DNA of 20,373 bases from positions 1-20,373 of IMG/VR virus record IMGVR_UViG_3300024503_000094. One strand, written 5' to 3'. The DNA comes from a virus. A program made the position numbers and the translations under genes. The notes under the pieces are model-generated. The model did not search any database. It was not told the origin of the DNA and worked only from the letters and a program-made list of their open reading frames with translations. Of the stretch, positions 3,644-19,910 are shown piece after piece (positions within the stretch are counted from its first letter, which is position 1; every line of letters begins with the position of its first letter).

Positions 3644-3933
3644 TAGGCTAACTTAATTCCTGTGGTTTGTTCTGTGTAGGCGTTGGCAAACTCTTTTAGA
3701 GTAGCTTCCATCACTACCACTGTAGCTGTAGAAATCCTTACAGCCTTGTCTGGATCTACGGTAAAAAGATATGGAACCATACCGATGCCTTTGTTAGTGG
3801 CACTTAATACCATAGGTTTTGAGATCTTGTAATAGAGAGGGCCGATCTCGACCAACTTACCTATAACTTCTTCGCCAGAAGTAAGTTTGATAGTTACTAC
3901 CTCTCCTTCGATGACACCTTTATCAATGAGCAT
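3643..3933 (-). CDS. Small beta-barrel (Sm/SH3-like) hypothetical protein
   Basis: The 96 residues have an N-terminal pattern EGEVVTIKLTSGEEVIGKLV followed by YYKISKPMVL. That is the strand-turn-strand arrangement of Sm/LSm or SH3-like small barrels. The C-terminal half is helical (residues 70-90). The resemblance is to fold only; neither an Hfq Sm2 signature nor known RNA-contact residues can be claimed. It overlaps the glutaredoxin stop by 11 bases and shares TAATG with the peptidase gene. It could bind RNA or be a structural adaptor. Confidence 0.65.
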   Translation of the reverse strand: MLIDKGVIEGEVVTIKLTSGEEVIGKLVEIGPLYYKISKPMVLSATNKGIGMVPYLFTVDPDKAVRISTATVVVMEATLKEFANAYTEQTTGIKLA

Positions 3934-4153
3934 TTGTTAGTTTATTCCTTAGTTCTGTGAACCCACCTACATATTCGTTTTCTAAAAATATCTGTGGTAG
4001 AGTTCTCGCTCCTGGTACTGCTTCTAAAAGTTGTTCTTTCGTCCAATCTTTTTGAATGTTTCTTTCTTCGTATTCAATGCCCTTAGCGTTCAATAGATTC
4101 TTGGCCTGATCGCAATAAGGACACCCATTCTTGCTCCATACAATCGCTCGCAT
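3923..4153 (-). CDS. grx: Glutaredoxin
   Basis: The product has 76 aa and the dithiol active site CPYC (residues 11-14) after the first strand MRAIVWSKNG. It also has the cis-Pro motif TLPQIF and the GG motif (YVGGFTEL) that bind glutathione. ATG 4153 follows AAAGGAAAA at good distance, so the apparent TTG start at 4168 is rejected. It is expected to reduce the C-terminal cysteines of NrdA (CEAC) and so recycle the ribonucleotide reductase encoded upstream, as T4 NrdC does. The gene follows nrdB with only a 55-codon ORF between. Confidence 0.93.
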   Translation of the reverse strand: MRAIVWSKNGCPYCDQAKNLLNAKGIEYEERNIQKDWTKEQLLEAVPGARTLPQIFLENEYVGGFTELRNKLTNAH

Positions 4154-4164
4154 AAGTTTTCCTT

Positions 4165-4332
4165 TCAACTTGAATATATTACGTGATTATTTTTATCAAT
4201 AACACGCACCAACAACATGCCCTTGTTCTTATAAGATAGAGCAGAGCTTACGGCTGCTTGTTCAGTGCCATAATGTCCGATCGTGGTCCAACTTTCGTAT
4301 GGTGAGTGTCTTTTAAACTGTGCTTTATACAT
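4165..4332 (-). CDS. Hypothetical 55-aa protein between nrdB and glutaredoxin
   Basis: This ORF is short enough to be missed by length cut-offs, but it fills exactly the gap between nrdB (stop 4337) and glutaredoxin (start 4153). It starts MYKAQFKRHSPYESWTTIG and ends MLLVRVIDKNNHVIYSS, giving a plausible beta-alpha-beta(beta) mini-domain. The Shine-Dalgarno is weak and the ATG lies four bases after the nrdB TAA, which suggests re-initiation. The stop TGA supplies part of the glutaredoxin ribosome site. Function is unknown. Confidence 0.72.
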   Translation of the reverse strand: MYKAQFKRHSPYESWTTIGHYGTEQAAVSSALSYKNKGMLLVRVIDKNNHVIYSS

Positions 4333-4336
4333 ATTA

Positions 4337-5437
4337 TTATATAGCTGGTAAACTATCGTAATCTAGTTTATCTGACATAACTCCGATCACGTAGTTTGTG
4401 CTTTCGTTTTCCTGTAGAGCTGTCTGCTTCTTGCTAGTATCACTATGCTTGTTAAACCAAGGAATCGGAGTTGACTTTGGAGCAGGATTCCAATATTTGA
4501 TTCCAATATCTTTTAGAGCACCGACAGCAGTATAATCTACGAAATCTTTTAGAATATTAGCATTAAGTCCAATAACAGGACCCTTCATAAACAGATAGTC
4601 TGCCCAGGCCTTTTCTTCATCAATGACATCTTTGTAGATTTGAATAACCTCGTCGTGACATTCTTGTGCTGCTTTGGCAAATCGAGGATCTTCTTTGACT
4701 ACTTGATTGATCAAGAAGGCTGTCCAACCTTTGTGTAGTAGTTCGTCTTGTAGGATTAGGCTGATGATGTTGCCATTACCGATAAAGATCTTGTTCTCTA
4801 CCATGGCCAATGATGTAGCAAAGCTAACCATAAAGCGGAATGCTTCGAGAGCGTAACTGGCATGTAGTGCTAGATAGATAGCACGGACATGGTCTTCTTC
4901 TTTAACATCGCCGTTGCATTCTACAACACAGTTAATCTGGTGTAACTTGTCATAGTATGCACCAACGCTTGAGGCCATATCTACAATCTGTTTTGTATCG
5001 TGGATAGTGTTGAACACATCCTTAGGCACATTATAGATGTTGCGGATGATATGGCTGTAACTGCGACTATGAATGTTAGTTTCAAAGAATGTCCAGTTGT
5101 AAACTAACGCTTCTAGTTCTGGTAGGCTTACGACCGGAGTAAAGATTTGACTTGGGCCGCGACCTTGCAGACTGTCAAGAGCAGTTTGGCGGAGCAGGTT
5201 ACTAGTGAAGATATGTTTAACTGCATCCGATGCTTCCTTAAAATCATTTGCATCTTTGGCTAGACTAATCTCTTCTGGAACCCAGAAAAAGCCACGTGCT
5301 GTTTTTTCAAAGTCAGCGATCTTGTTATACTTTACTTCTTCGAATCGTTGAATAGTAACTGGGCCTGCCGGATCTAAGAACATCTTACGATGAAGGTAGT
5401 CTGTCTTTGCGTGTAGGTTATATTGTTGTTTGCTCAT
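4337..5437 (-). CDS. nrdB: Class Ia ribonucleotide reductase, beta (radical) subunit
   Basis: The product has 366 aa. NrdB houses the diiron centre and tyrosyl radical used by NrdA to make deoxynucleotides. Expected residues are visible: W52 (FFWVPEE), ligand D88 (ALDSLQGRGP), E119 and H123 with radical Y127 (HSRSYSH), E198 (ALEAFRF), and E232/H235 (DELLH). A conserved Tyr sits near the C-terminus (NYVIG). One oddity stands out: E119 and H123 are four residues apart (ETNIH), whereas E. coli and T4 have three (ETIH), so one residue is inserted between two metal ligands. The start overlaps iscU as ATGA. Oxygen-dependent class I activity is inferred. Confidence 0.95.
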   Translation of the reverse strand: MSKQQYNLHAKTDYLHRKMFLDPAGPVTIQRFEEVKYNKIADFEKTARGFFWVPEEISLAKDANDFKEASDAVKHIFTSNLLRQTALDSLQGRGPSQIFTPVVSLPELEALVYNWTFFETNIHSRSYSHIIRNIYNVPKDVFNTIHDTKQIVDMASSVGAYYDKLHQINCVVECNGDVKEEDHVRAIYLALHASYALEAFRFMVSFATSLAMVENKIFIGNGNIISLILQDELLHKGWTAFLINQVVKEDPRFAKAAQECHDEVIQIYKDVIDEEKAWADYLFMKGPVIGLNANILKDFVDYTAVGALKDIGIKYWNPAPKSTPIPWFNKHSDTSKKQTALQENESTNYVIGVMSDKLDYDSLPAI

Positions 5438-5814
5438 TGTCTTTTCTTTTTATAATCGTCTATCGCTGATTTGATTGCATCTTCAGCAAGGATGCTACAA
5501 TGGATTTTGACTGGGGGCAATGCGAGTTCTTCAGCAATCGCTGAATTTTTAATAGTTGAGGCTTCGTCCAGCGTCTTGCCTTTAACCCATTCGGTAACAA
5601 GAGAGGAACTTGCAATCGCAGATCCACACCCGTATGTTTTGAACTTCGCATCTTCAATGATCCCTTTGTCGTTGACTTTGATTTGCAGTTTCATTACGTC
5701 ACCACAAGCTGGAGCCCCAACCATGCCAGTGCCAACATTAGGGTCAGACTTATCAAAGCTGCCAACGTTTCTAGGGTTTTCGTAGTGATCAATAACCTTG
5801 TCTGAGTAGGCCAT
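5434..5814 (-). CDS. iscU: IscU Fe-S cluster scaffold protein
   Basis: The product is 126 aa, full length for the family. IscU assembles [2Fe-2S] clusters with sulfur from IscS and passes them on through HscBA. All key residues are present: C37 and D39 (APACGDV), C63 (YGCGSAIASSS), H105 and C106, and the chaperone-recognition motif LPPVK directly before HCS. Compared from memory, the protein is very close to E. coli IscU along its whole length, which suggests fairly recent capture from a proteobacterium. No IscS, HscA or ferredoxin is encoded nearby, so it must use host partners. It lies between sod and nrdB, overlaps both, and has its own GGGAG ribosome site. Confidence 0.96.
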   Translation of the reverse strand: MAYSDKVIDHYENPRNVGSFDKSDPNVGTGMVGAPACGDVMKLQIKVNDKGIIEDAKFKTYGCGSAIASSSLVTEWVKGKTLDEASTIKNSAIAEELALPPVKIHCSILAEDAIKSAIDDYKKKRQ

Positions 5815-6346
5815 TTACTTTCTCCCAGTTGACTATTTTCCATTGATTCTCTAAATACTTTTTCTTGTCTGCCTGATAGTCAAGAGCCCAGGCATGCTCC
5901 CACCAATCTACTAAAATCAAAATATCTTTCTTGATCTGATGATTAGTTATAGTTTTTATTTTACCATCTTTAGCCAAATAGATCCAACCACTTCCTTGTA
6001 TACTCATAGCTGTTTTGGTAAACTCTTCTTTGAACTTATCGAAACTAGAATAATGTTCTTCAATAAACTCTAGTACGCGACCGCTTGGTTTATTACTAGA
6101 AGAGTATTCTTGATATTGTTGGAACAGTATGTTGTGCAGGAAAACACCGGCTTCATTAAAGTCAGGATCGCCTTCACCTTTGTTATATCTTTCTGCGTAG
6201 GTTTTGGCTAGTTTACCATAATGATAGTCTATGGTGTTTTCTGATATGCTAGGATCTAGTTTTTTAGCATCGTAAGGAAGCGGCTCTATTTCTAATACAT
6301 GAGCCTTGCCTTCCTGTAATACATTACGAATAAAACTAAATGCCAT
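5789..6346 (-). CDS. sodB: Fe/Mn-family superoxide dismutase
   Basis: The product has 185 aa. It should convert superoxide to O2 and H2O2. The four metal ligands are visible: H42 (DYHYGK), H71 (AGVFLHNI), D147 and H151 (LVDWWEHAWALDYQ), plus the GSGW motif. Two points are unusual. The second active-site histidine of the usual YHYGKHH is replaced (YHYGKLA), and the N-terminus carries about 15 extra residues (MAFSFIRNVLQEGK) before the normal LPYD start. ATG overlaps the nrdA stop as TAATG. Iron versus manganese use cannot be decided by eye. The symbol reflects family only. Confidence 0.93.
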   Translation of the reverse strand: MAFSFIRNVLQEGKAHVLEIEPLPYDAKKLDPSISENTIDYHYGKLAKTYAERYNKGEGDPDFNEAGVFLHNILFQQYQEYSSSNKPSGRVLEFIEEHYSSFDKFKEEFTKTAMSIQGSGWIYLAKDGKIKTITNHQIKKDILILVDWWEHAWALDYQADKKKYLENQWKIVNWEKVNGLLRQGY

Positions 6347-11458: not shown

Positions 11459-11851
11459 TCAAGCCTGGACGCCGGCTTGTGCTTGTGCTAGTTGTTTGGG
11501 GGCTGCGCTAGATGCTATCTTATCTACAGCATCTGCGCTTGTTTCGCCGCTGTTTACAGGAGTCTGTTCTTCTTCGCTGTCTGGGGCGCCAGGAACCTTT
11601 AGTTCCATACCGTTGGCATTAAAGTTTTTAACTAGGTTTTGTAGTATAGGATATTGATCATACATAGACTTAAAAGTTTCGTAGTCTGCTCCAAACTCAA
11701 AGCCTGTGTCTTTGCTCATCTGTGCTACTGCATTCCAGTTTAACTTAGCCGGTGCTTTTTTACTGGCTGCACGGCCAATGTGATTTCTTAGTGCGATTAT
11801 AAACTTGTCTATATTCGCATCATTAGAATCTATAAATTCAAAAAATCTCAT
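11459..11851 (-). CDS. Hypothetical protein with capsid-targeting-like N-terminus
   Basis: The product has 130 aa. It begins MRFFEFIDSND, resembling the MKTYQEFIAE capsid-targeting peptide of T4 internal proteins, and a neighbouring gene starts in a similar way. The middle is helical; the last about 40 residues are Ala/Gln/Ser-rich and disordered (from about PDSEEEQTP). It overlaps the coiled-coil gene as ATGA. A head-internal or scaffold-associated role is inferred from the N-terminus and position. No enzyme motif was found. Confidence 0.7.
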   Translation of the reverse strand: MRFFEFIDSNDANIDKFIIALRNHIGRAASKKAPAKLNWNAVAQMSKDTGFEFGADYETFKSMYDQYPILQNLVKNFNANGMELKVPGAPDSEEEQTPVNSGETSADAVDKIASSAAPKQLAQAQAGVQA

Positions 11852-12135
11852 TTCATTGTCGCCAGTTGTTTTTGCTGATCGGCCAGTTGCTTCTGTAGTT
11901 CTACTATCTGCTGTTGTGTCTGCTTGATTTGATCAGTCAGTTCTTTTTTCTTGTTCTGTCTATCCAAGGCCTGTTGAGCCTGCATCTTTGCAGCCGCTTG
12001 AGGATCCTGTGTCGCTTGTGCAGCACCCGGTGCAGCAGCACCTGGAGCAGGAGCAGTTCCAGGAGTTGCTGATGCACCCATTGGTTGGGTCGATGAAGCT
12101 GCATCGGCTTCATGGACTAGATCAGAAAATCTCAT
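11848..12135 (-). CDS. Low-complexity coiled-coil protein, possible head-internal protein
   Basis: The product has 95 aa. The N-terminus MRFSDLVHEAD is followed by an Ala/Pro/Gly-rich disordered stretch (about residues 13-45) and a Gln/Lys coiled coil at the C-terminus (about 55-92, with QQQIVELQKQLADQQKQL). The N-terminus resembles a T4 capsid-targeting peptide, with a possible cleavage after VHE. It is coupled on both sides (TAATG before, ATGA after). A structural or packaged role is inferred. Confidence 0.7.
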   Translation of the reverse strand: MRFSDLVHEADAASSTQPMGASATPGTAPAPGAAAPGAAQATQDPQAAAKMQAQQALDRQNKKKELTDQIKQTQQQIVELQKQLADQQKQLATMK

Positions 12136-15223: not shown

Positions 15224-16342
15224 TTAATCTGCTCGGAATGGAGTCCAGCGATCTCGTGGAACTAGCTTGACGCTTTCAGGTCCGTGTACATAACCCTCGC
15301 CGCCGGGCTTACCTCCGGTGTGAGCAGCTATATCACCGCCAGCTTGATCTAGCTCTGCGATAACTTCATTCTTGGCTTTCATCAACTCACGCACTAGGAC
15401 AAACATATTATCCATGACTCCCTGATGCTGTTGATTTAGTGATGCTATCTTAGCCTGCTTAGGTGCGCTGACTTTGCTGCCCTTGATCCATTCAAAGAAG
15501 TCCTTGCTGCTTAGACTATCTAATGCCTTGTCTCTACTGCGTTGATTAACATAGGTATAGATTATATTCTGTAGATCACTGAGTCCTTGTGTAGGAGTTA
15601 GCAGTTGATCTATCTTCTGTGCATAGCTGTTAGCTAGCTTTTCTATAGTACCTATGTTGTCTGCGTTGACAGCAGGTTGATGGCTAACATAGGTCTGACC
15701 AAACACTACTAGATCCGGGGATCCATTAAACTGTTTTACATCTGCTAGATCTTCTCCGCTCTTATCACCAAAGTAATCTAGATGTTTATGAGCAGCCACA
15801 GCTACCTTAGCCTTGCCTAATCTACGTCCTACTTCGCTAGCACCTTTAACTTCATAGGTAGTTTGGTTAGGAGTAAAGATTAGTTTACCATCACGACCTT
15901 CGTAGGGTTTGCCTGGATGGAATAAGATATCTCCGTAGATATAACCACGGAAGTCTTTAGGCGTAGCACGTTCGAATATAGGCCATAGGCTGGCCATATC
16001 ACCAGCAAACTTTTCACGCCAGTCCTCGCCTTTGCCGCGACTCATGATAAACTGTTTAAGTTCTTCTGGACTAGAACTGCGCCCTTCTTCACGACCCCAG
16101 TTGTTCTTGCCAACCATACGGAAGGTACCGTCTTCGTCTCTACCCCAATATACTGTAGGATTTCCATCCCACTTGATGCTGATGTTTTTGGCATCAGCTG
16201 AAATATTCTTTAATACGCTGACAGCACGTAAAGCACCACGAGGTTCTGTGAATACTAGATCTTCTAGATGGTTGAACTCTCGGCCGACTTTCTTAGGAGC
16301 AGAGGGAGCTAGATCTTCTGTTAAAAACTCAAAAGCTCTCAT
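15224..16342 (-). CDS. KxDG ligase-like nucleotidyltransferase with capsid-targeting-like N-terminus
   Basis: The product has 372 aa. It shows the ordered motifs of covalent nucleotidyltransferases (DNA/RNA ligases, capping enzymes): motif I K57-W-D-G60 (ISIKWDGNP), a motif III-like RGYIYGDILF (about 132-141), motif IV E349-G-Y-V352 and motif V V358-K-L-V. The EGYV block and following VKLV...RW resemble RNA ligases, although the gap between motifs IV and V is short. The first nine residues, MRAFEFLTE, resemble T4 capsid-targeting peptides and end in LTE, a T4 prohead-protease-type cleavage site. ATGA couples it to a pol-beta-type nucleotidyltransferase. Substrate is unknown. Catalytic competence is inferred from motifs only. 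Confidence 0.72.
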   Translation of the reverse strand: MRAFEFLTEDLAPSAPKKVGREFNHLEDLVFTEPRGALRAVSVLKNISADAKNISIKWDGNPTVYWGRDEDGTFRMVGKNNWGREEGRSSSPEELKQFIMSRGKGEDWREKFAGDMASLWPIFERATPKDFRGYIYGDILFHPGKPYEGRDGKLIFTPNQTTYEVKGASEVGRRLGKAKVAVAAHKHLDYFGDKSGEDLADVKQFNGSPDLVVFGQTYVSHQPAVNADNIGTIEKLANSYAQKIDQLLTPTQGLSDLQNIIYTYVNQRSRDKALDSLSSKDFFEWIKGSKVSAPKQAKIASLNQQHQGVMDNMFVLVRELMKAKNEVIAELDQAGGDIAAHTGGKPGGEGYVHGPESVKLVPRDRWTPFRAD

Positions 16343-17109
16343 TTAATAATCTCTATCATCCTACGGAACCATGCGCCAGTTCCTGGTACAAAACTTTCTA
16401 CCTTGCCTGCCTCTGGAAGTTTCAATCCTTCTCTTCCTAGTGTTTCTCTAGCATCTGCGACTAGCTCTTCGTAGTTAGGTAGCTTGATGATATAATCGAT
16501 TACAGCTTCTGGATCTTGTAGATTCTTAGGACTAGCTGTTTGTCCTAGCAGCTTCTTAGCTATTTCGTTTGGATCTTTGGTAATAAGTTCTTTGCCGTCG
16601 CCACTCATTAATCCATTGTTAGGACTCCACTTCATACCACGTGCTTTGGCTATGCTTGCTAACAATACGTGTCTATGGCTTCCTTTTAACTCGCTGCCTT
16701 CTTTGCCGCCTTGTAGGCTCCAGCGAAGCCACGATGGTTCACCAAACATAAAGTCTGCTTGTACGAATCCGTTATCTGGATTACCTTTGATAGGAGTTTT
16801 GAAGTGTACAGATATACCGCTTTTCTTAACCCATTCTTTTGGATTACCACCGTCCTTGGCAATGTAGTCCATAAGACGTTGTGCGAACTCATTTTTGTTT
16901 ACAGCATTAGCATCTACAGCTAGATCTAGATCTCCACTGGTTTCTTTTTTGCCAGTCGTTCCTAGCATGTTATCAGTAAGTTCAAGTCCTGTAACTTTTT
17001 CTAGCCACTGTACTGTGGGCAGAACGTCCGCTTTATTAATGCGTACTGTTAGAACTGTACCGGCATCATCTTTGAAGATATTGCCGCCTTCAAATAGTAA
17101 GTCACTCAT
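16339..17109 (-). CDS. Pol-beta superfamily nucleotidyltransferase
   Basis: The product has 256 aa. Residues 48-66 (MLGTTGKKETSGDLDLAVD) carry the hG[GST]...DxD signature of minimal nucleotidyltransferases with D60 and D62 as metal ligands, and D119 (FVQADFMFG) is a plausible third carboxylate. The central RHVLLASIAKARGMKW resembles the helical segment after the NT core. It would transfer a nucleotide to RNA, DNA, protein or a small molecule; the target is unknown. It overlaps the helical protein before it by eight bases and the ligase-like gene after it by ATGA. The N-terminus MSDLLFEGG contains LFE-G, compatible with a prohead protease site, but this may be chance. Confidence 0.75.
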   Translation of the reverse strand: MSDLLFEGGNIFKDDAGTVLTVRINKADVLPTVQWLEKVTGLELTDNMLGTTGKKETSGDLDLAVDANAVNKNEFAQRLMDYIAKDGGNPKEWVKKSGISVHFKTPIKGNPDNGFVQADFMFGEPSWLRWSLQGGKEGSELKGSHRHVLLASIAKARGMKWSPNNGLMSGDGKELITKDPNEIAKKLLGQTASPKNLQDPEAVIDYIIKLPNYEELVADARETLGREGLKLPEAGKVESFVPGTGAWFRRMIEIIK

Positions 17110-17386
17110 TGTTTGATTCTTCTAGTTTTCTTTTTGCTTTGCGAGATTCTGATATCTTGCGTATTCCGCGGGTGAACTTAGCAGGATCTGCACCTTTGAT
17201 AGCATTGATAAAGCGACGTTCTAGCTCATCTGCCATTTCTGGGTCGTAGGCCTTATGAATGCTTTCTAGCAGATTGATAGCAGAGTTGATGATATTGGTT
17301 GCTCTGCTTTCATACAGGGCATCCTTGTTTCGAACTTCTGCTAACTCATTAAGCTCTTGTAATATTGATCTAGTTTTTACTTTCAT
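17102..17386 (-). CDS. Helical basic protein, 94 aa, first gene of NTase operon
   Basis: It starts MKVKTRSILQELNELAEVRN and is predicted all-helical with a strongly charged, Lys/Arg-rich end (FTRGIRKISESRKAKRKLEE). The basic tail may bind nucleic acid (inference). Similar sequences are, from memory, conserved in T4-like cyanophages with no assigned function. CGGAAC precedes ATG 17386, and GTTAAATA at 17408-17415 may drive the operon. Confidence 0.72.
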   Translation of the reverse strand: MKVKTRSILQELNELAEVRNKDALYESRATNIINSAINLLESIHKAYDPEMADELERRFINAIKGADPAKFTRGIRKISESRKAKRKLEESNNE

Positions 17387-18618: not shown

Positions 18619-19329
18619 TTATGTGGTAGTTCTTAATCTTGCTAGTCCTACTGACTCTAATATCTTTATATAGAGCCAACCTATATCAAACTCCCACCAC
18701 TTCTGAGAGAGGCGGGCACTCGCTGGTTCCAAGTGGTGGTTGTTGTGCAACTCTTCTCCACCAATAACAATGCCCCAAGGCACAATATTACGACTATAAT
18801 CACGTGTCGTTCCATTTCTATACCCCCACCAATGTGCTAGGCCGTTTATTACTCCTGCGGCCCAAAATGGAATCCATATCATTTGTATACCCCATACCAA
18901 CAATCCCCACCATCCAAAGATCAAGGTGTTGAGCACAAGGAGAATGCCAATGCCAAGTCTACTGTGAGGCTGGTATAAGTGAAGCTCCAACCAATCAGCA
19001 GGAGTACCAACACCGTATGTATCGACCATATCTTTATCTTTCGATGCTTCATGATACAATAATGCTCCTTGACTAAACACACGCCATATTCCATATACGT
19101 GGGGGCTGTGTGGATCACCATCTTCATCGCTGAATCTGTGATGCTTACGATGTATAGCTACCCATTGTTTTGTTACCATACCGGTTGTTAGCCATAACCA
19201 GAATCGCATAAAATGCTCAACGGCTGGATGAAAAGTTACTGCTCTATGTGCTTGTGCTCTGTGCAAAAACAAAGTAACACACATAATGGTTATGTGTGTC
19301 ATTATTAAAGTGTATATCAATTCTATCAT
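18619..19329 (-). CDS. Acyl-lipid / acyl-CoA delta-9-type fatty-acid desaturase
   Basis: The product has 236 aa. It has three histidine boxes of membrane diiron desaturases in order: H23-RAQA-H28 (HRAQAHR), H60-RKHH (HRKHHRFSDED) and H195-NNHH (HNNHHLEP), plus the N162-xxx-H166 motif (NGLAHWW) of the stearoyl-CoA desaturase group. Hydrophobic spans flank them (about 1-20, 40-55, 127-160). It introduces a double bond into fatty-acyl chains at the membrane and needs O2 and an electron donor, which is not encoded here. It is shorter than many bacterial homologues but has all boxes. The start overlaps the hydrolase by ATGA. Regiospecificity is inferred. Confidence 0.92.
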   Translation of the reverse strand: MIELIYTLIMTHITIMCVTLFLHRAQAHRAVTFHPAVEHFMRFWLWLTTGMVTKQWVAIHRKHHRFSDEDGDPHSPHVYGIWRVFSQGALLYHEASKDKDMVDTYGVGTPADWLELHLYQPHSRLGIGILLVLNTLIFGWWGLLVWGIQMIWIPFWAAGVINGLAHWWGYRNGTTRDYSRNIVPWGIVIGGEELHNNHHLEPASARLSQKWWEFDIGWLYIKILESVGLARLRTTT

Positions 19330-19910
19330 AGTGATCGTTTTATCCTGTTTATAATCAAATCAACTACTCTGTCACTGATAACCACTTCGTAATGATTTAA
19401 CTCCATCTCGACTATTTCAAAGTCTTTGCGTGATCGCATACTATTTAACGTGACCACTCCGTCGTTGGGTTCACTTATCCACGGGCTCTGTCCAGCAGTT
19501 GTTACTACCTGTGTCCAGTTAGGAGGCGCAGGCAAATGACGAGCTTCCATCATCGGTTCGCTCATAGTACCAACATCCTTCATCAACCTGTTAAATGGTA
19601 AGAAGTATTTGGCAAAATCTGCTTGTTCGCTGCCAGCATAAGGAGTGCTTAAACTGACACCTCCTTTGGTAGTTTCTTTATAATGATGGGCCAAATATAA
19701 ACTATAGATACCGCCTAGACTATGACTGATAAAGAACAGTCTGTCGGCATCATCAAGCTGGCCTTTCATCTTTTCGAGATTGTTGAAGAACCCATCATGG
19801 CTCTTATACTCGAGCATTATGTCGGGTTCTTCAAATGTATCTCTAACATACTGCCTAATGTGCGTAAAGCTCTCAGCTGTCGCACTCGCTCCGTGGATAT
19901 AAACTATCAT
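19326..19910 (-). CDS. Alpha/beta hydrolase, lipase/esterase-like
   Basis: The product has 194 aa. The N-terminal strand and oxyanion motif ([10 protein letters not shown]) is followed by the nucleophile elbow H-S64-L-G-G (ISHSLGGIYSLYLA). Candidate acid D150 (EPNDGVVTL) and base H173 (ELNHYEV) complete the triad. The DGVV...H arrangement recalls lipase and PGAP1-like enzymes. It lacks a signal peptide, so it is probably cytoplasmic. It could release fatty acids from lipids or thioesters, or act on a storage polyester; the substrate is not shown by sequence. It is coupled as TAATG to isocitrate lyase before it and ATGA to the desaturase after it. Confidence 0.85.
   Translation of the reverse strand: MIVYIHGASATAESFTHIRQYVRDTFEEPDIMLEYKSHDGFFNNLEKMKGQLDDADRLFFISHSLGGIYSLYLAHHYKETTKGGVSLSTPYAGSEQADFAKYFLPFNRLMKDVGTMSEPMMEARHLPAPPNWTQVVTTAGQSPWISEPNDGVVTLNSMRSRKDFEIVEMELNHYEVVISDRVVDLIINRIKRSL

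Follow-up and report, generated by a model that had tools for sequence, protein, structure and literature searches.

A polymerase X-like nucleotidyltransferase and a ligase-like DUF6267 protein of phages as candidate head-packaged repair enzymes

What task do a nucleotidyltransferase (NTase) and a ligase-like protein share when a phage encodes them in overlapping genes, and at what stage of infection do they act? The window analysed here is the whole of the 20,373-base-pair virus record IMGVR_UViG_3300024503_000094 (positions 1-20,373), a fragment of a T4-like phage genome. Three overlapping genes on its minus strand (17386-15224) encode a helical protein of 94 amino acids (aa), an NTase of 256 aa and a ligase-like protein of 372 aa. 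The helical-protein and NTase genes share 8 nucleotides (nt; 17102-17109) and the NTase and ligase-like genes share 4 nt (ATGA, 16339-16342). An original prediction made from the DNA letters had described the two enzyme genes as overlapping and preceded by the helical protein. The same prediction proposed a pair in which one enzyme processes a nucleic acid end and the other seals it. Our analysis upholds the fold classes, the intact active sites and the genetic coupling behind that proposal, supports the idea that ends are processed and sealed, and adds a setting that it had not foreseen, since leaders on both proteins point to the virion. On balance we lean towards the view that both enzymes are packaged in the head, injected, and used to fill and seal broken nucleic acid.

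Searches of viral contigs confirmed 287 relatives of the ligase-like protein and 145 of the NTase, and the best 80 loci of each were kept. All three genes are found in 149 of the 156 locus records, with the window and overlapping records counted in. The loci L064, L071 and L110 are broken off by contig ends. In two longer ones, L120 and L121, genes for the helical protein and the NTase are retained, but no ligase lies at the expected place. Conservation was measured in alignments of 60 NTase and 65 ligase homologues.

Both enzymes start with a short leader that ends in (L/I)xE, namely MRAFEFLTE|D in the ligase-like protein (nine residues) and MSDLLFE|GG in the NTase (seven residues; the bar marks the predicted cut). 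Both fit the T4-type leader pattern of about 6-20 N-terminal residues ending in (L/I)xE. The ligase leader occurs in 63 of the 65 homologues and is followed by a linker of 3-93 aa, and (L/V/I)xE|GG occurs in 58 of the 60 NTases, with variable residues ahead of it. The NTases of the jumbo phages Phosso, Atu_ph07 and PA5oct are leaderless and start with M-GG or M-SG, which is the predicted cut position. For comparison, the T4 proteins IPII and IPIII start with MKTYQEFIAE|A, and cleavage takes 65 residues (ending in FLTE) from gp23 and ten (MAKINELLRE) from gp24. Six residues are removed from T4 Alt at ITE-6 (PMC5694885). Capsid-targeting sequences of this kind guide proteins to the prohead core; gp21 cuts the sequences off, and the proteins then enter the host with the DNA (PMC7411985).

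A T4-type protease (PF03420) is present in two long relatives with the gene set, of 162 kb and 364 kb (E values 6e-25 and 5e-26 between the two), and is not seen in the window, which is a fragment. The 162-kb relative has a Gp23 capsid protein with the site KYLAE|SATAG, and the 364-kb relative likewise encodes both families. The leader pattern occurs in 8 of the 213 genes of the 162-kb genome, whereas 200 shuffles of the N-termini gave an expectation of 0.8 and never more than 4; one of the eight is the 94-aa protein, possibly a match in form only.

The region between the two enzyme genes appears to be a site of gene exchange. The NTase and ligase genes lie more than 30 nt apart in 61 of the 138 loci that have both. 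A leader is present on 23 of the 32 distinct genes in the larger gaps compared with 47 of 1,477 other open reading frames (ORFs; Fisher P 9e-26, kinship ignored). The inserted genes include ones for a second NTase, for a CCA-adding enzyme (PF01743, E 2e-36) and for small proteins of Cys/His or basic type, as would be expected of a slot that collects packaged cargo. Given leaders on both enzymes and a slot for other leader-bearing proteins, the likely setting is therefore the virion head and injection. Judged from these sequence features, it is very probable that both enzymes are packaged in the head of this phage.

Some individual genes can be described further. Four contigs (L153:8911-10053; L171-L174) encode an enzyme of the CCA-adding/poly(A) polymerase type that bears the leader MRAFEFLIE, and in L153 it lies between the NTase and the ligase. 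A small Cys/His module (~WSKKYKxSINCSNPKGFSQKAHCAGRKK) sits behind the leader or close to the end of phage proteins that are otherwise dissimilar, across dozens of contigs (L011, L035, L094 and others; S-SM2 gp108, L257:2195-2623), and a basic Cys-rich tail (KTAVTTKPSKLKKGSKASKRRKSYC...) is repeated among the inserted genes. Atu_ph07 (L158:9558-16402) carries about ten consecutive genes behind the NTase, mostly near 250 aa. Two that were read start with MRLFQLLE|T and MRWHQLIE|N, and the array perhaps represents leader-bearing cargo.

The NTase was originally taken to be minimal. Its fold class holds, and its extent exceeds that description. The AlphaFold2 model (predicted local distance difference test, pLDDT, 85.8) matches Pol lambda and Pol beta in Foldseek at E 3e-5 to 1e-3 with probability 1.0 (Pol lambda, E 3e-5). 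It aligns with Pol beta at Z 10.2 across residues 13-201, which comprise palm and thumb. The model and the alignment together place the three catalytic aspartates of family X (D60, D62 and D119) in a predicted palm-thumb fold. G50, T51, G53, S58, G59, D60, D62 and D119 are invariant in the 60 homologues, whose identity to the window protein falls to 49%. A profile of 12 diverse PolX sequences matches the NTase family at E 1.6e-4 with a score of 33.7, and 100 column-shuffled versions reach at most 20.8. When the PolX hidden Markov model (HMM) was run on 1,789 locus ORFs, the NTase family (100 of the 1,789) took all ten top places and 41 of the top 50, with single E-values that are weak. The NTase had no usable match in Pfam, NCBIfam or PADLOC (60 homologues for Pfam), and one scan of prokaryote genomes returned no relatives. 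We read it as a divergent relative of the family X DNA polymerases and as more than a minimal NTase domain. A second NTase family (GSS...GDVDL...VQVDF; L094:4025-5146 and alignment A6), with LxE|GGWDTT and no Pfam or PHROG match, distantly resembles the window NTase (hhalign E 1.7e-4).

The ligase-like protein belongs to Pfam DUF6267 (PF19782), a family without an assigned function that is named in no paper of the literature searched. It scores 72 bits against a gathering cut-off of 27, and all 65 homologues match the model. K57, W58, D59, G60, D138, E349, G350, Y351, V352 and K359 are present, and K57, D59, G60, D138, E349, G350 and K359 are invariant among homologues with identities down to 36%. 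Motifs I, III, IV and V of the covalent nucleotidyltransferases are found in order (K57xDG, D138, E349G and K359). Six of these residues (K57, D59, G60, E349, G350 and K359) persist in cyanophage and methylophage DUF6267 proteins and line up with the Atu_ph07 and Phosso ligase-like proteins. The residues that the original prediction had named in both enzymes (D60xD62 and D119; K57WDG and EGYV) are thus present, the catalytic ones without variation. Neither wrong folds nor loss of K57, E349, D60 or D62, the two outcomes it had named as speaking against it, was found.

The fold of the ligase-like protein is also predicted, with pLDDT 88.1 and a disordered stretch in the first 20 residues of the AlphaFold2 model. 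Foldseek returned no significant PDB match (best E 0.29), with tRNA, DNA and RNA ligases heading the list, and an HMM search of PDB sequences gave chance-level matches only. Upon realignment, the 50 matches listed were RNA ligases, DNA ligases and capping enzymes at Z 4.7-6.1, under the tool's caution line of 8, and the ligase claim therefore leans on the ordered, invariant motifs. A tblastn search of phage records with the window protein found nothing at E 1e-5, and divergent homologues were needed as queries. In the model, the chain stops 13 residues past K359, so that no oligonucleotide-binding (OB) or equivalent C-terminal domain follows motif V, and a helical insert occupies residues at about 227-334. 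We therefore name the protein ligase-like and not a classical ATP-dependent ligase.

Related phages bear on the coupling of the two enzymes. Ligase-like genes adjoin or lie near the NTase gene in Atu_ph07, Phosso and PA5oct, and their sequences are very unlike DUF6267. Because such unlike ligase-like genes accompany the NTase, the comparison supports a shared task. EST35_0229 was considered as the PA5oct ligase and rejected, as it is not a ligase; the ligase-like gene is EST35_0228. The DUF6267 profile gave no alignment with a three-sequence jumbo phage set, which contained the non-ligase EST35_0229.

Two relatives provide evidence from virions. In PA5oct, the NTase homologue EST35_0231 carries a structural annotation based on electrospray ionization tandem mass spectrometry (ESI-MS/MS). 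In cyanophages, DUF6267 (T4-GC71) is encoded directly upstream of the cytidylyltransferase T4-GC190, which begins with a capsid-targeting-like leader, MKKFSAFLNE|AE. T4-GC190, the neighbour of DUF6267, was detected in purified S-SM1 virions (PMC3037559). Copies of T4-GC190 include SSM1_190 (L259:30257-31420), one in DSL-LC02 (L255:3664-4743) and S-PM2 A0A0M6VVW4. In S-PM2, the DUF6267 model picks up a 591-aa cytidyltransferase-like protein as well (E 1.6e-14), which points to a fusion of DUF6267 with cytidylyltransferase.

The 94-aa protein may belong to the virion as well. Its homologues in PA5oct, CBB, GAP32, RaK2 and K64-1 carry virion structural annotation, almost every locus has its gene upstream of the NTase, and the run of genes from it to the exonuclease is similar to blocks of virion-protein genes in PA5oct and CBB. 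It had been described as a basic helical protein; it is helical, and with 19 K+R against 16 D+E it is only mildly basic. Its motif RSILQE fits the leader pattern in form only and is at most a candidate leader, because the jumbo phage homologues do not keep its E.

Combining these observations, we propose that the NTase and the ligase-like protein are made as precursors whose 7- and 9-residue leaders would target them to the prohead core. A T4-type prohead protease would cut the leaders after (L/I)xE, and both cut enzymes would remain with the DNA in the head and accompany it into the next cell. At a broken end or gap in that cell, the PolX-like enzyme could add or fill in nucleotides and the ligase-like enzyme could adenylate and seal it, before phage gene expression. 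If the enzymes are packaged, nucleic acid end processing is a reasonably probable role for them. For the substrate we incline slightly to DNA over RNA. The resemblance to PolX favours DNA, as does the advantage that a phage would gain from repairing its incoming genome; RNA is favoured by the CCA-adding enzyme in the slot and by the RlaP precedent discussed below.

Several points weigh against this proposal. The virion detections come from the relatives PA5oct and S-SM1 and not from the window phage, and the PA5oct NTase is leaderless, so its detection is no test of the leader. DUF6267 proteins of P-HM1, DSL-LC02, P-RSM6 and S-SM1 have no leader, and they may ride in with their partner or go unpackaged. 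The Fisher count on the slot genes takes no account of how the loci are related, and the CCA-adding enzyme in the slot points to RNA. Sealing is not assured for the modelled ligase-like protein because motif V lies too close to the C-terminus to leave space for an OB domain and the fold match is modest (E 0.29, Z 6.1).

The pair could instead be a repair system for RNA. The NTase would restore lost nucleotides and the ligase would rejoin tRNA cut by host anticodon nucleases, a role that has been proposed for RlaP NTases with RNA ligases, with packaging and injection still possible. RlaP NTases with RNA ligases are a described jumbo phage pairing (PMC7824862), which takes away part of the claim that the window pair is undescribed; in Pfam, however, no match of the window proteins to RlaP or to standard ligases was seen. 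The best structural matches of the ligase are RNA ligases, although DNA ligases 1 and 4 come within about 1 Z of them. A ligase-like neighbour of the NTase in Atu_ph07 weakly matches Pfam RNA_ligase (E 0.002, below cut-off), and the leader-bearing CCA-adding enzyme occupies the slot in one lineage. The NTase itself resembles DNA polymerase X by fold and profile, and no RlaP model appears among the Pfam matches of the 60 NTase homologues at E up to 10, in a search whose HMMER filters may drop weak matches. We regard RNA repair as rather unlikely, with a real chance nonetheless.

Two further explanations dispense with repair or with packaging. The enzymes could be injected protein modifiers that transfer nucleotides to host or defence proteins, much as injected T4 Alt transfers ADP-ribose (PMC5694885); phage heads also carry other modifying enzymes (PMC9503650). 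The absence of an OB domain from the ligase-like protein would suit such a role, but the NTase has a polymerase thumb besides the palm and two unlike ligase families adjoin the same NTase family in different phages, and we consider protein modification improbable. It is at least as improbable that the pair are ordinary expressed replication or repair enzymes, unpackaged, with leader-like N-termini that mean something else. Several cyanophages do have leaderless DUF6267, and the block has nrdA and an exonuclease gene in its neighbourhood. Yet the leader is conserved ahead of a variable linker, leaderless homologues begin at the cut position, 23 of the 32 inserted genes bear leaders and relatives are detected in virions.

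Table 1. Genes, predicted leaders and catalytic motifs in the window
Feature	Coordinates	Strand	Basis
94-aa helical protein, virion structural family (phrog_11854)	17102..17386	-	PHROG E 4e-17
NTase gene, 256 aa, divergent family X DNA polymerase-like	16339..17109	-	AlphaFold2, Foldseek, profile match
NTase leader MSDLLFE, predicted cut before GGN	17089..17109	-	(L/V/I)xE|GG conservation
NTase catalytic D60-x-D62	16924..16932	-	Invariant among homologues
NTase third catalytic Asp, D119	16753..16755	-	Invariant among homologues
Ligase-like gene, 372 aa, Pfam DUF6267	15224..16342	-	72 bits, cut-off 27
Ligase leader MRAFEFLTE, predicted cut before D10	16316..16342	-	Leader conservation; disordered in model
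Ligase motif I, K57-W-D-G60	16163..16174	-	Invariant
Ligase motif IV, E349-G-Y-V	15287..15298	-	E349, G350 invariant
Ligase motif V, K359	15266..15268	-	Invariant
Further block gene with leader-like start MRFSDLVHE|AD	11848..12135	-	Fits strict leader pattern

Elsewhere in the window, the regions 5434-6346, 3923-4168 and 18619-19910 contain possible host-type metabolic genes, judged by eye to be IscU-, superoxide dismutase-, glutaredoxin-, fatty-acid desaturase- and hydrolase-like.

If the proposal of packaged, injected enzymes is correct, infection would start with repair enzymes already in the cell, ahead of any phage gene expression. DUF6267 would gain a proposed function, and so would the NTase family, which is unannotated and occurs on many aquatic phage contigs. 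A short leader running from M-R/K to (L/I)xE could serve as a sequence rule for guessing which uncharacterized proteins a T4-like phage loads into its head and injects, and the exchange slot would be a place to seek further injected proteins, including counter-defence ones. More tentatively, and with some doubt, we speculate that T4-like and some jumbo phages carry in their heads a DNA repair kit of a family-X-type polymerase and an OB-less ligase that mends gaps, nicks or host-made breaks in the incoming genome, and that the intergenic gap exchanges tagged cargo.

Separate parts of this picture are already known, namely capsid-targeted injected proteins, NTase-ligase pairs and packaged ADP-ribose enzymes (PMC9503650). 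The literature searched, which left out preprints and most subscription journals, yielded no packaged pair of a polymerase-like and a ligase-like enzyme around an exchange slot. The window enzymes share with T4 IPI-III and Alt a short N-terminal leader ending in (L/I)xE, and their relatives have a T4-type protease and capsid site. Known T4 cargo consists of an anti-restriction protein and an ADP-ribosyltransferase, whereas the window cargo would be polymerase-like and ligase-like enzymes that flank an insertion slot. As in the RlaP and RNA ligase system (PMC7824862), a pol-beta superfamily NTase is genetically linked to a covalent nucleotidyltransferase ligase. The window pair differs in lacking Pfam RlaP and RNA_ligase matches, in an NTase closer to DNA polymerase X and in leaders that suggest packaging.

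The NTase has the predicted palm-thumb fold and the three catalytic aspartates in common with family X DNA polymerases, and its family aligns with their profile at E 1.6e-4. Those polymerases usually have a GS motif; the window protein instead has GT and no Pfam match, and its activity is a prediction. Large eukaryotic DNA viruses offer a further lead, as particles that carry a family X polymerase and a ligase for repair are described for them, although these viruses and their packaging are unrelated to the window phage. The closest comparison for the ligase-like protein is its own family, DUF6267 or T4-GC71. Cyanophage members are often leaderless and have as partner a cytidylyltransferase, T4-GC190, that is itself leader-bearing and seen in virions, whereas the partner in the window is the NTase.
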